This document shows positions 4,498 through 9,796 of a stretch of DNA of 64,000 nucleotides, piece by piece; position 1 is the first letter of the stretch; each line of letters opens with the position of its first letter. The notes beneath the pieces were generated by a model. It did not search any database. It saw nothing but the letters and a program-made list of their open reading frames with translations, and was not told the origin of the DNA. The translations under genes and the position numbers were made by a program. Source of the DNA: Haloarcula laminariae (lineage in GTDB: Archaea > Halobacteriota > Halobacteria > Halobacteriales > Haloarculaceae); NCBI RefSeq assembly GCF_025457605.1, contig NZ_JAMZFY010000001.1, forward strand, positions 1,612,001-1,676,000, in the 5' to 3' direction.

Positions 4498-5613
4498 ATG
4501 GGGCTTATGGAGACAATACCTAGCAGGCGACAGCTTCCGGCCGTGCTGTCGAGTGGCAGCGCCGTCGCCGCCGTACTCGTGTATCTGACCGTGGACTTGA
4601 TTGTCAAGCTGACGGGCACGACAGTGTTGATGTTCGATTTACACGTCCTCGGCGGCTCGCTCCCGGTCGGCTCGCTCCTCTCGATGGTGGTCGACGGGTT
4701 GCTCGTCGGGCTGGCCGTCGGACTGGCCGGCATCGGCCTGTCGATGACCTACAGCATTCTCGACTTCGCGAACTTCGCCCACGGCGACACCGTCACCGTC
4801 GGGGCCTTTCTCGGGTGGGTCGCTGCGTACGTCGTCGCCGGCTTCGGCAGTGGCGCGGCGCTTTCCGACCTGTTCCTGTTCGATACGGGCCAGCAACTCA
4901 GCGTCGTTTCGGCGTTCGCCCCGGTGCTCGTCGGTCTCGTCGTCGCCGGCGCCGGCACCGTCGGCGTCGTCCTCCTCGTCGACCGCCTCACCTACCGGCC
5001 GATGCGCGGGTCGGACAACATCTCACTGCTCATCGCCTCCATCGGGGTCGCGCTCGCCCTCCGCTATCTCGTCGCCTTCGTCTTCGGGGCCCAGACCAGC
5101 GGGGTCGCCTCCAGCGGCGCCCGGTTCCAGGTCGTCTCCGGCTTGTCCGTCACGGACAACGAGATCGCCCTGCTGGTCGTCAGCGTGGCGCTGATGCTCG
5201 GGGTCCACCTGTTGCTCCAGCGGACCAAACTCGGCAAGGCGATGCGGGCGATGGCGGACAACGAAGACCTCGCGCGCGTGACCGGGATTCCGGCCGAGCG
5301 GGTCGTCCGGCTCACCTGGATTCTCGGTGGCGCGCTGGCCGGCATCGGGGGGTACCTACTCGTCCTCGAAAGCGGCACCATCTCCTTTAACTTCGGCTGG
5401 ATTCTCCTCCTGCTCATCTTCGCGGCGGTCATCGTCGGCGGCATCGGGTCCATCTACGGCGCGATGGCCGGCGGCGTCCTCATCGGGCTGGTCGACAGCC
5501 TGGCGCTCATCTGGCTCCCGTCGGGACTGAGCCGCGCGGCCGCGTTCGCCGTCCTCATCGCCGTGTTGTTGCTGCGGCCGTCCGGTCTGTTCAGCGGGGT
5601 GAGTACGGCGTGA
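4498..5613 (+). CDS. livH: Branched-chain amino acid type ABC transporter permease LivH
   Basis: A 371-aa membrane protein with about nine hydrophobic segments. It carries the LivH signatures: GLSMTYSILDFANFAHGD near the N-terminus and the EAA-like loop RAMADNEDLARVTGIPAERV (about 250-270). It ends in LLRPSGLF. It is the first gene of a tightly packed livH-M-G-F operon. Its stop overlaps the GTG start of livM by four bases. With LivM it forms the transmembrane channel for import of branched-chain amino acids or related amides and acids. The long N-terminus before the first conserved helix is typical of haloarchaeal members. Confidence 0.92.
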   Translation: MGLMETIPSRRQLPAVLSSGSAVAAVLVYLTVDLIVKLTGTTVLMFDLHVLGGSLPVGSLLSMVVDGLLVGLAVGLAGIGLSMTYSILDFANFAHGDTVTVGAFLGWVAAYVVAGFGSGAALSDLFLFDTGQQLSVVSAFAPVLVGLVVAGAGTVGVVLLVDRLTYRPMRGSDNISLLIASIGVALALRYLVAFVFGAQTSGVASSGARFQVVSGLSVTDNEIALLVVSVALMLGVHLLLQRTKLGKAMRAMADNEDLARVTGIPAERVVRLTWILGGALAGIGGYLLVLESGTISFNFGWILLLLIFAAVIVGGIGSIYGAMAGGVLIGLVDSLALIWLPSGLSRAAAFAVLIAVLLLRPSGLFSGVSTA

Positions 5614-6884
5614 GCGCCGCCACCGACGTGCGCGAGAGGCTTGCCGGCCTCCCCGACTACGCGATGGTCGGCCTGTTCATCGTCGCCATCTGGCTGCTGT
5701 TGATTCTGTTCGCGGCGGTAGTCGGCGGCCAGCAGGCGACGAACCTCGCGGCCGGATTCGTCGGCAGCGTGACCGTCCTCATCGGCGCCTTCGCCCTGCT
5801 GACGCTGGCGTTGAACCTCCAGTGGGGGTACACCGGGCTGTTCAACATCGGCGTCGCGGGGTTCATGGCCGTGGGCGCGTACACGACGGCGATACTGACC
5901 GCTCCGCCCGACCCCGCTGCCGGGGCCGTCGCTGGCTTCGGGTTGCCCCTCTGGGTCGGCCTCCTGGGCGGGATGGTGATGGCCGCCATCGTCGGCGCGC
6001 TGGCCGCCCTTCCCGCTCTCAGACTGCGAGCGGACTACCTCGCCATCGTCACTGTCGCACTCTCGGAGATAATCCGGCTGTTCGTCAACTGGAACGGCGT
6101 CGAACGGGTGGTCCTCGGCGGCGTCGAGTTCGGGACCGGGGGCGCGACCGGCATCTCGTTCAAGTCCCCCTCCGGCGTCGTCGAGGGCGTCATCAACGGC
6201 CCCGGCGCGCCCCTCGTCGCGGCCGCCGAGGGCGTCGGCATCTCGGGGTCGAACCTCGTCAACTTCGCCTACGGGCTCGTCCTCCTCGCGCTCGTCGTCG
6301 CGAGCTACTGGGTGCTCTCCCGACTCGTCGACTCCCCCTTCGGCCGCGTGCTGAAGGCCATCCGCGAGGACGAGCAGGTGACACAGTCCCTCGGGAAGGA
6401 CACCCGCCTGTTCAAGATAAAGGCGTTCATGATCGGCTGTGCGCTGATGGGGCTGGCCGGCGCGCTGTTCCGCGGAAGCGCGGGCTACATCAGCCCGGCG
6501 CAGTTCCGGCCCGGCATCACGTTCTACGTCTTCGCCGCGCTCATCATCGGCGGCGCGGGCTCGAACACGGGCAGCATCCTCGGGGCCGCGACGTTCTCGG
6601 CGCTGCTGTTCTACCTGCCCGCGCGCCTCGGTGAGTTCTTCCCGCAACTGGGCGGCCAGTCACCCGGCAACATCGTCGACGCCGTCGCCGCGCTCGGCGT
6701 ACTCGATGCGGGTCCGCTGGTGGCCTACGTCATCGCGAATATCAGCACGCTCCGCTTTGTCCTCATCGGCGTCGTCCTCATCTACATCATCCAGCGTCGG
6801 CCGCTTGGGTTGCTCGGCCATCGGAGCGAACCGGCGGCGAGCGTCGACCTGACGCGGCCCTCCGGCGGTGGTGACGATGAGTGA
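5610..6884 (+). CDS. livM: Branched-chain amino acid type ABC transporter permease LivM
   Basis: A 424-aa multi-spanning permease beginning with GTG (MSAATDVRERL) and overlapping livH. Diagnostic stretches are TLALNLQWGYTGLFNIG, DYLAIVTVALSEIIR and the EAA loop DSPFGRVLKAIREDEQ (about 242-257), then a final helix ending IIQRRPLGLLG. It is the second subunit of the Liv membrane channel. Its stop overlaps the livG start, so the operon is translationally coupled. Length is normal for archaeal LivM. Confidence 0.92.
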   Translation: MSAATDVRERLAGLPDYAMVGLFIVAIWLLLILFAAVVGGQQATNLAAGFVGSVTVLIGAFALLTLALNLQWGYTGLFNIGVAGFMAVGAYTTAILTAPPDPAAGAVAGFGLPLWVGLLGGMVMAAIVGALAALPALRLRADYLAIVTVALSEIIRLFVNWNGVERVVLGGVEFGTGGATGISFKSPSGVVEGVINGPGAPLVAAAEGVGISGSNLVNFAYGLVLLALVVASYWVLSRLVDSPFGRVLKAIREDEQVTQSLGKDTRLFKIKAFMIGCALMGLAGALFRGSAGYISPAQFRPGITFYVFAALIIGGAGSNTGSILGAATFSALLFYLPARLGEFFPQLGGQSPGNIVDAVAALGVLDAGPLVAYVIANISTLRFVLIGVVLIYIIQRRPLGLLGHRSEPAASVDLTRPSGGGDDE

Positions 6885-7704
6885 GCCCGAAGCGGTCGAC
6901 GCGCCGGCGACCGCCACGACGAGCGACGCCATCGACGCGCCGCTGCTCGAAGTCGACGGGCTCCGCAAGGAGTTCGGCGGCGTCACCGCCGTCGACGGGA
7001 CCTCCTTCCGCGTCGCGCCCGGCTCCCTGACCGGCCTCATCGGGCCCAACGGCGCCGGCAAGTCGACGACGTTCAACTGCATCACCGGCATCCACGAGCC
7101 CACCGGCGGCACCGTGCGCTTCGACGGGCAGGACGTGACTGGGCTTCCCCCGTACACGCTCGCCCGACAGGGGCTCGTCCGGACGTTCCAGATCGCCCGG
7201 GAGCTCTCGGAGATGACCGTCCTGGAGAACGTCATGCTCGCCCCGCCGGACCAGCGGGGTGAATCGGCCGTCCAGGCTGTCCTCCCGGGGCTCCGCGAGC
7301 GGGTACAGGAAGCGGAGCGGGACGTGGTCGAAGACGCCTGGGAGACGCTCGACTTCTTCGAGATTGACCACCTCGCCCACGAGGACGCCGGTTCGCTGTC
7401 GGGCGGTCAGCGGAAACTCCTGGAGATGGCCCGCGTGCTGTCGACGGACCCCGAGATGGTCCTGCTCGACGAACCGCTCGCCGGGGTGAACCCGACGCTG
7501 GAGGAGAAGCTGCTCGACCGCATCGACCGGCTCCGCCGGGACGGGCTGACCTTCCTGCTCGTCGAACACGATATGGACGTCATCATGGAACACTGCGAAC
7601 ACATCATCGTCATGCATCAGGGACAGGTCCTCGCGGAGGGGGACGCGGACACCATCCAGTCCGACGAGCGCGTTCTCGAAGCCTATCTCGGAGGTGACGT
7701 ATGA
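6877..7704 (+). CDS. livG: Branched-chain amino acid type ABC transporter ATPase LivG
   Basis: A 275-aa ATPase. Walker A is GPNGAGKST, the Q-loop follows in VRTFQIAREL, the signature is LSGGQRKLLEMARVL, Walker B is MVLLDEPLAG and the switch His is in VEHD. The ATG at 6877 (MSEPEAV) was chosen over the in-frame GTGs at 6868 and 6871 because it overlaps the livM stop as elsewhere in this operon. It acts on the cytoplasmic face with LivF. It has a 20-residue Ala/Thr/Asp-rich N-terminal extension. Confidence 0.93.
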   Translation: MSEPEAVDAPATATTSDAIDAPLLEVDGLRKEFGGVTAVDGTSFRVAPGSLTGLIGPNGAGKSTTFNCITGIHEPTGGTVRFDGQDVTGLPPYTLARQGLVRTFQIARELSEMTVLENVMLAPPDQRGESAVQAVLPGLRERVQEAERDVVEDAWETLDFFEIDHLAHEDAGSLSGGQRKLLEMARVLSTDPEMVLLDEPLAGVNPTLEEKLLDRIDRLRRDGLTFLLVEHDMDVIMEHCEHIIVMHQGQVLAEGDADTIQSDERVLEAYLGGDV

Positions 7705-8456
7705 GCCAGCAGGCCAGCCGGTCGGCGGACGTGACGCTTACCGACCCCGACGAGAGCCTGCTGGCGGTCCGCGACCTGGACGCCGGTTACGGGGACCTGC
7801 AGGTCCTCGACGGCGTCGACATGGACATCGGTTCGGGGGAGTACGTCGTCATCGTCGGGCCGAACGGCGCGGGGAAGTCGACCGTGATGAAGTCGGTCTT
7901 CGGCCTGACGACGCACATGGGCGGCTCGGTCACCTTCGACGGCCGGGATATCAGCCAGCAACGCCCCGACCAGATAATCCACGAGGGCATCGGTTACGTC
8001 CCCCAGAGCGACAACGTCTTCGGCAAGCTCACGGTCCGGGAGAACCTGGAGATGGGCGCCTACATCCTCGACGAGGTGCCCGAAAAACGAATCGACGCCG
8101 TCTACGACCGGTTCCCCATCCTCGAAGAGCGCGCCACCCAGAAGGCCGGGACGCTCTCGGGCGGCCAACAGCAGATGCTCGCGATGGGACGGGCGCTCAT
8201 GCTCGATCCGGAGCTTCTGTTGCTCGACGAGCCCTCGGCGGGCCTGGCACCGGACCTCGTCGTCGAGATGTTCGACCGCATCGACGGCATCAACGACGAC
8301 GGCACGGCCATCATGATGGTCGAGCAGAACGCCAAGGAGGCCCTGCGCCGGTGTGACCGCGGCTACGTCCTCGTCCAGGGCCAGAACCGGTATCAGGACA
8401 CCGGCGAGACGCTGTTGGCCGACGAGGACGTCCGCCAGGAGTTCCTCGGCGGGTGA
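7701..8456 (+). CDS. livF: Branched-chain amino acid type ABC transporter ATPase LivF
   Basis: A 251-aa ATPase with Walker A GPNGAGKST, signature LSGGQQQMLAMGRAL, Walker B LLLLDEPSAG and the H-loop replaced by Gln (MMVEQNA), which is usual for LivF. It overlaps livG by ATGA. It is the last gene of the operon. Only 44 bp separate it from the converging substrate-binding protein gene, so the five genes together supply a full importer. Confidence 0.93.
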   Translation: MSQQASRSADVTLTDPDESLLAVRDLDAGYGDLQVLDGVDMDIGSGEYVVIVGPNGAGKSTVMKSVFGLTTHMGGSVTFDGRDISQQRPDQIIHEGIGYVPQSDNVFGKLTVRENLEMGAYILDEVPEKRIDAVYDRFPILEERATQKAGTLSGGQQQMLAMGRALMLDPELLLLDEPSAGLAPDLVVEMFDRIDGINDDGTAIMMVEQNAKEALRRCDRGYVLVQGQNRYQDTGETLLADEDVRQEFLGG

Positions 8457-8500
8457 GGTGTCGTCCGTCAAAAGAATCGTCGGTACCGCCGACAGCGTGC

Positions 8501-9796
8501 CTACTGGTTCAGCGCGCTGTTTATCTGTGAGGTGTAGGAGGACTGCTGGGACTCAAAGCCCACCTGCTGGAGGACGGTCCCGCCGGACTCCTCGAACGCG
8601 CTGACGAAGCTCTCCTGGAGTGCCTGGCCGTAGCTGTTGTTGAGATACAGCGTCGACGCCGTCGAGGCCCCGAGGTCCTCGTTGGATATCTGTGACAGCA
8701 CCCGTCCCTGTAGGGCGTCGCTGGGCGGCGTGCGGAAGACGAAGTCGTCGTCCTCCAGCCCGGTGATCGTCGGCGAGGTCGAGGCCGGCGAACAGGCCAC
8801 GACCTCGTTGTCCACGAGGACGTTCCGTGCGACCTGAATCGTCGCTTCGGACCCCGCGGCGCCGGTGATAGAGGGGTAGCCGGCGCTTACGAGCGAGTTG
8901 GCCGCGTTGACAGCCGCCTCGGCCGTCGACTGGGTGTCCCCGGTCTGCGTGTCGATGGTCTGGTCGATGCTGTCTTCGAGCTGTCTGGCGGGCAGGAGGG
9001 CCGCGTCCCGAATCGCCTGCCCCAGCGAACCGAGGTCGCCGGTCTCCGGCTGTAGGACGCCGAGTCGGACCGTTCGGTCGGCCCCGCTCCCGCTGCCGGC
9101 CGGCTCGGGCTGTGGCACGTCGCCGGAGCCGCCGAAGTCGATGCTGCTCTGGGTCTCGTAGCCGTCCTGATTGAACCCGAACACCTGATACTGAGCGGAC
9201 GTGATATCGCCCGCGTCGTCGAAGTCGACGCTGCTCGAGGCCCCCGCGTACTCGATGTTCTCGCCCGCGGCGGCCGCCTCGGCGGCTTCCGGGAGTTCGG
9301 ACGGCGTGTACGTCGTCCCGCCCGGGTTCGCGACCACGCGCATGTGGTCCCGAATCGAGGCCCCGTCGTTCTCGCCGGCCATGAGATTCGCCAGAATCTG
9401 GACGGCGGAGGCGTCGTACGCCTGTGAGGTGAACACCCCCGCGTTGTCGTAGTCGAACTCGTCGGTAAACAGCGACTCGAAGAAGTCGACGCCCGGCCCG
9501 GACGCCGACGGCGCCGAGCCCTGGACGTTGGACATGTCGTTGCCGACATTACCCGGCAGTCCGTTGTCCTGTAGCCCGTCGGTGACGAGGATATCGACGG
9601 TGTCGTCGCCGTAGTCGGCGTAGTAGTCCTTGAATAACTGGACGCCGCTCTGGGGATAGCCGACGACCATCAGGACGTCGGGCGTCTCGTTGCTGCCCTC
9701 TTCGTCGGCCTGCTCCGTGGAACAGCCGGCGAGCCCCGCGAGGCTGGCGGCGCCGGCAATCTTCAAGAACGACCGTCTATTGGTGTCATTTACCAT
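8501..9796 (-). CDS. LivK-like ABC substrate-binding lipoprotein, circularly permuted
   Basis: A 431-aa intact protein. A Tat motif (NRRSF) and lipobox LAGC (Cys25) mark a membrane-anchored exported lipoprotein. The body is in the wrong order for the family. Residues 38-222 are what is normally the second half of LivJ/LivK (PDVLMVVGYPQSG... GNDMSN, QAYDASAV, ASSSVDFDDAGD). A Gly/Ser/Pro linker spans 222-241. Residues 242-431 are the normal first half (VRLGVLQPETGDLGSLG... ACSPASTSPTIT, LYLNNSYGQAL, SYTSQINSALNQ-stop). In ordinary homologues the helix ending in SAL leads directly into PDxLMVxGYP. Here those two edges are the C-terminus and the start of the mature domain. Ligand-loop motifs from both halves are kept, so binding may survive. 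Confidence 0.9.
   Translation of the reverse strand: MVNDTNRRSFLKIAGAASLAGLAGCSTEQADEEGSNETPDVLMVVGYPQSGVQLFKDYYADYGDDTVDILVTDGLQDNGLPGNVGNDMSNVQGSAPSASGPGVDFFESLFTDEFDYDNAGVFTSQAYDASAVQILANLMAGENDGASIRDHMRVVANPGGTTYTPSELPEAAEAAAAGENIEYAGASSSVDFDDAGDITSAQYQVFGFNQDGYETQSSIDFGGSGDVPQPEPAGSGSGADRTVRLGVLQPETGDLGSLGQAIRDAALLPARQLEDSIDQTIDTQTGDTQSTAEAAVNAANSLVSAGYPSITGAAGSEATIQVARNVLVDNEVVACSPASTSPTITGLEDDDFVFRTPPSDALQGRVLSQISNEDLGASTASTLYLNNSYGQALQESFVSAFEESGGTVLQQVGFESQQSSYTSQINSALNQ

Follow-up and report, generated by a model that had tools for sequence, protein, structure and literature searches.

Haloarchaea capture amino acids for import with a protein on their surface, and in many of them the two halves of this protein have changed places. 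We describe such a protein from a window of 64,000 nucleotides of Haloarcula laminariae (the whole stretch of DNA that was analysed); it is a LivK-type lipoprotein whose chain is genuinely circularly permuted. We propose that it is a working partner of the LivHMGF transporter, made in place by duplication, and that the arrangement probably has at least three origins in the class Halobacteria. To this explanation as a whole we assign a probability of about 0.7.

The frame runs on the minus strand from 9796 to 8501, and the plus strand carries stops in the matching frame (Table 1). A preliminary description of the gene had claimed that the halves of LivK stand in reversed order within one uninterrupted frame of 431 residues, and this was borne out by the Pfam match, by separate searches with the two halves and by the rotation of the secondary structure. 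Positions 1–186 of the Pfam family Peripla_BP_6 (PF13458) match residues 242–428 only, and thus the start of the family sits at the end of the protein; the match to NCBIfam PRK15404 is likewise partial (positions 24–210). The E-values for Peripla_BP_6 and ANF_receptor are 4e-22 and 4e-15, with the first profile half only being matched, at the protein end. Searched separately, each half matches LivK homologues, as had been supposed, and the order is swapped with respect to the homologues from Halogranum, Chloroflexi and Aerophobetes; identity to the Halogranum homologue is 54–55% for each half. The sequence matches of the protein are LivK-type proteins together with class C receptors. Both halves are homologous to LivK, and the canonical linear order of the fold is absent. 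The gene is the sole close homologue of its kind in its own genome.

Table 1. Positions of the permuted livK gene, its parts and its neighbours in the window, and of a livK gene cut at a second site in another genome
Feature	Position	Strand	Basis
Permuted livK, 431 aa plus stop	8501..9796	minus	ORF, Pfam match, separate half searches
Tat-type lipoprotein signal with lipobox LAGC, residues 1-25 (RRSFLK..LAGLAGC)	9722..9796	minus	motif read directly
Post-lipobox spacer, residues 26-37	9686..9721	minus	
LivK half normally C-terminal, residues 38-222, first strand PDVLMVVGYP	9131..9685	minus	
Linker GSGDVPQPEPAGSGSGA, residues 223-239 (17 aa), old C-terminus to old N-terminus	9080..9130	minus	
LivK half normally N-terminal, residues 240-431, last helix ..INSALNQ	8504..9079	minus	
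livH permease	4498..5613	plus	conserved neighbour
livM permease	5610..6884	plus	conserved neighbour
livG ATPase	6868..7704	plus	conserved neighbour
livF ATPase, convergent with livK	7701..8456	plus	conserved neighbour
Second permutant livK (further cases L179-L182)	L142:6396-7754	minus	

The cut lies exactly between the helix ending SALxx and the strand xPDVLxVIGYP, in agreement with the earlier statement that the protein ends at the helix before the PDVLMVVGYP strand. In unpermuted relatives the N half and the C half are only 2–8 residues apart (mostly 3–4 in haloarchaea), and therefore the cut is clean, with next to no sequence missing. The lipobox Cys25 and the Gly/Ser/Pro linker were also found as first described. 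This linker begins directly after the ordinary C terminus (..TIDFG) and stops directly before the ordinary mature domain (DRTVRLGVLQP). The length of the post-lipobox tether does not differ between permuted and unpermuted proteins (median of 22 versus 23 residues).

Structural models agree with this picture. AlphaFold (AF2) models, built with a 16-row alignment, gave a pTM of 0.81 and a mean pLDDT of 77 for the permuted protein, and 0.86 and 83 for the unpermuted Halogranum orthologue; a confident single fold was thus obtained, in which the helices and strands are those of the Halogranum model in rotated order. In sequence-ordered Foldseek alignments to LivK (3td9), the permuted model is covered over only ~193 columns (TMq of 0.39) and the unpermuted model over its entire length (TMt of 0.87), as a permutation predicts. 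Searching with the C half alone, we found no solved relatives by phmmer; the same half does align once the profile of the unpermuted family is used. After re-ordering, the permuted protein has the same residues as E. coli LivK at S79, T102, Y150 and Y202, and Asp in place of E226. We chose these five positions as ligand contacts, presuming that they bind the amino acid zwitterion as in LIVBP structures. Since the ligand residues are kept, the permuted protein is most likely an amino acid binding protein, and we consider an amino acid role likely. In comparison with LivK/LivJ and the HAAT proteins (PDB 3td9, 4gnr, 2lbp; PF13458), it shares the family, the predicted fold of each half, the ligand residues and the liv neighbourhood, but differs in the order of the halves, the position of the anchor and the linker; the C53–C78 pair is also absent, C78 of the E. 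coli disulfide being substituted and a counterpart of C53 not being seen. We take the cut region to be lobe II of LivK. The order of the halves would then place the lipid anchor on lobe II and add a fourth crossover between the lobes.

On one point the picture given by the preliminary description changes: the gene does not stand alone, the arrangement being common in Halobacteria at the liv locus. We searched 391 Halobacteria genomes, 307 of which had a match at E <= 1e-30; by E-values and match ranges, on which these counts rest, the best match is permuted in ~168, has the usual order in ~138 and is a second permuted form in 1. The genes actually read amount, in the final set, to 67 permuted, 60 of the usual order and five with the second cut. 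Beyond the class, a search of the phylum yielded no permuted copies among the matches listed, those outside Halobacteria being broken up into matches to single halves, the pattern that the usual order gives, and the bacterial and archaeal outgroups are all unpermuted. The same swapped order occurs in separate assemblies of Haloarcula, Halomicroarcula, Halomicrococcus and others. With dozens of independent assemblies showing it, it is neither chance nor misassembly, the latter having been named at the outset as what might overturn the claim. Moreover, dN/dS among nine orthologues is 0.06–0.31, indicating purifying selection on the permuted protein. The reading as a decayed gene or a product of faulty assembly has nothing in its favour beyond the oddness of the order, and we give this reading next to no credence in view of the many assemblies, the purifying selection, the full frame with its signal peptide and the status of sole close homologue in the genome; misassembly and pseudogene were both ruled out on the first two of these grounds. 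The permuted protein is very likely in a working state. Within genera the permuted form is patchily distributed. One case is L201, which is permuted, while its genus mates L202–L204 are unpermuted at the same locus; the position of L201 varies between trees.

The cognate livHMGF genes adjoin the permuted gene in convergent orientation (4498–8456, plus strand). Across the set, livK and livF converge at a distance of no more than 4 kb in 54/58 permuted and 45/54 unpermuted cases. Unpermuted haloarchaeal LivK proteins (for example L011 of Halogranum, L116 and L131) occupy this same position convergent with livHMGF and show ~50–63% identity per half, differing in their ordinary order and in having no linker. 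With both orders found at one orthologous position, the change took place, or was exchanged, in situ. It could be supposed that the permuted protein has left transport for another role, such as that of a chemotaxis receptor. Other substrate-binding proteins double as receptors, and one tandem copy in two genomes is without a lipobox. We nevertheless judge this very improbable, since the permuted copy is the livK that adjoins livHMGF in those 54 of 58 cases, in the same place as the ordinary gene, and since the ligand residues are retained.

To count origins, the halves were put into one order before building LivK trees, and separate trees were built from concatenated LivHMGF. In both kinds of tree the permuted copies are split rather than forming one clade: there are three permuted groups, with different linkers and one cut site, separated by unpermuted orthologues. 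Clade A comprises Haloarcula, the genus of the window, and relatives including L079, L199 and L200; its unity is uncertain, because L079 shifts between trees. Clade B (L080–L082, L086, L087, L089, L093 and L176) is nested with the unpermuted L121, L131, L132, L138 and L148 in both kinds of tree, and clade C is large (L009 to L113 and others). In a first set, the AU test of all permuted LivK as one clade was borderline (p=0.058). In a second set, the pairwise mergers were rejected for LivK (A+B, p=0.001; A+C, p=0.025; B+C, p=0.028). Mergers were likewise rejected for LivHMGF (A+B, p=2e-4; A+C, p=2e-4; B+C, p=1e-6; all three, 3e-45), as was one permuted clade of the transporters, at 2e-71. All these values are weakened by the groups having been named only after the tree was seen. 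A single origin by old paralogy is not favoured by the AU tests. The linkers are clade-specific, with PQPEPxGSGS in the Haloarcula part of A, ATAxDPVGVD in B and PSADxxPGG in most of C. Some linkers of the A side and of clade C have the motif DSIPG in common (L079 and L214), and those two may therefore share an origin.

We prefer repeated gain to a single gain followed by reversals, though it is not proven. A single early haloarchaeal gain, with the ordinary order later reinstated in several lineages through another round of duplication and trimming, would account for the one cut site in all main groups and for the partial likeness of the A and C linkers, and the second permutants of clade C demonstrate that gapless restoration of the old junction is feasible. 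We consider this history unlikely, since it needs more steps (~6–7 losses versus ~4 gains in the first sampling, as read off the trees), all outgroups are unpermuted, and the unpermuted haloarchaeal proteins that we inspected have an outgroup-like gapless junction with no linker remnant there, and spacers of their own. The count of changes on the tree in the first sampling is four, a kind of count that cannot tell gain from loss.

The second permutants are cut ~40 residues into the N half, after beta1-alpha1, and were found in five genomes of two genera (G310, G750 and G754 in one; G759 and G760 in the other). They start before beta2 of the N half and continue through a gapless old junction into the C half, a clade-C linker and finally beta1-alpha1. 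In both trees they nest within clade C, beside permuted relatives, which indicates that a permuted gene was permuted again and the old junction restored. Seamless re-joining is thus possible, and this is the chief reason for still considering reversal. One such gene, initially classed by its tree position as a reversion (CONV_L142), is actually a differently cut permutant.

Alternatively, one permuted gene may have spread horizontally and recombined with resident livK genes, homogenising the halves and giving a false appearance of multiple origins. The patchiness within genera and the constancy of the cut throughout the main groups are in keeping with such transfer. Several observations make it quite doubtful: the same polyphyly appears in the transporter genes, which are not rearranged; identity between permuted and unpermuted proteins is at most 66% in the set compared, which is low for gene conversion, the top pair itself involving a second-cut permutant; and the linkers differ between clades, though overwriting would spare them. 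Returning to repeated gain, its fullest form would be that the liv locus is a hot spot, where livK underwent three or more permutations without changing its location, all at one helix–strand boundary and each bringing a new linker, and where a single lineage permuted it again at another site, the transporter partner staying the same throughout. We rate the chances of this fuller statement as even.

Duplication is the textbook way in which circular permutants come about in general. We infer that the ordinary livK was converted without leaving the liv locus, most likely through a tandem duplication that was later trimmed; this probably took place at least three times in Halobacteria at one and the same cut site, with a later shift of the cut in one lineage. 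The product would be the lipid-anchored binding protein of an amino acid importer, its translation starting in lobe II; a flexible linker would join the old C and N termini, the lobes and the ligand cleft would be rebuilt as in ordinary LivK, and the anchor would have moved to the other lobe, with one more crossover between the lobes. The preliminary description derived the gene from a single tandem duplication, which fares less well: the shape of the tree hints at several events, inspection of 111 loci revealed neither a tandem intermediate nor a remaining livK fragment apart from the second permutant, and the linker retains no lipobox Cys. Its companion idea, that the linker was the post-lipobox spacer of the second copy, is compatible with the Gly/Ser-rich composition. 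The C-terminal tails of L106, L107 and L108 (ALSGPEN, ALSGSEN and ALSGPDN) resemble the starts of their own C halves (GPEG, GPEG and GPDG); this likeness may be a small overlap left by duplication, and is suggestive only.

A naturally permuted Type I substrate-binding protein is already known. TpMglB-2 (Tp0684), for which the class "Type Ic / Cluster Bc" was proposed, binds glucose and belongs to an MglB family of spirochaetes and Gram-positives; its cut lies in the N lobe, after three strands, a fourth lobe crossover was reported, and the moved part is only ~13% identical to EcMglB (PMC4990184). Like permuted LivK, it is a circularly permuted, lipid-anchored Type I protein that adjoins its own ABC transporter. 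In contrast, the protein described here belongs to the LivK family and to archaea, its main cut lies in lobe II and not after the third N-lobe strand, its halves are ~50–60% identical to unpermuted orthologues, and it appears to have several origins. Permuted LivK thus has the principle in common with TpMglB-2, and differs in family, cut and host domain. We found nothing on permuted LivK, or on permuted archaeal or haloarchaeal binding proteins, in the open-access papers searched, which does not by itself prove novelty; the suggestion that no natural permuted LivK had been described stands to this extent, while a permuted Type I binding protein as such is not new.

A natural permutant is usually recognised only in retrospect, with no orthologue of ordinary order at its locus. 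In the present case, ordinary, permuted and re-permuted forms all occupy one orthologous locus across an archaeal class, many of them still 50–65% identical. If the swap was repeated in the same place, as the family tree suggests, it would be a rare natural record of rewiring without loss of the job. The system makes it possible to test directly by what route a permutation comes about, whether it can be undone, why the same cut recurs, and whether uptake changes when the membrane anchor sits on the other lobe. It also bears on automatic annotation, as ordered profiles catch no more than one half of this transport protein, which is common in haloarchaea.

Some individual loci depart from the general arrangement. 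Tandem pairs of permuted livK copies occur at L096:6380–9192 and L097:6799–9630, with one copy of each pair (L096_6380 and L097_8317) having a signal sequence without the lipobox Cys. The unpermuted livK genes of L124 and L130 encode Gly/Asn/Ser-rich C-terminal tails past the normal protein end. In G065, a permuted livK of clade-B type (L219:6567–9371) is interrupted by a transposase-like frame of 396 aa (7674–8861).
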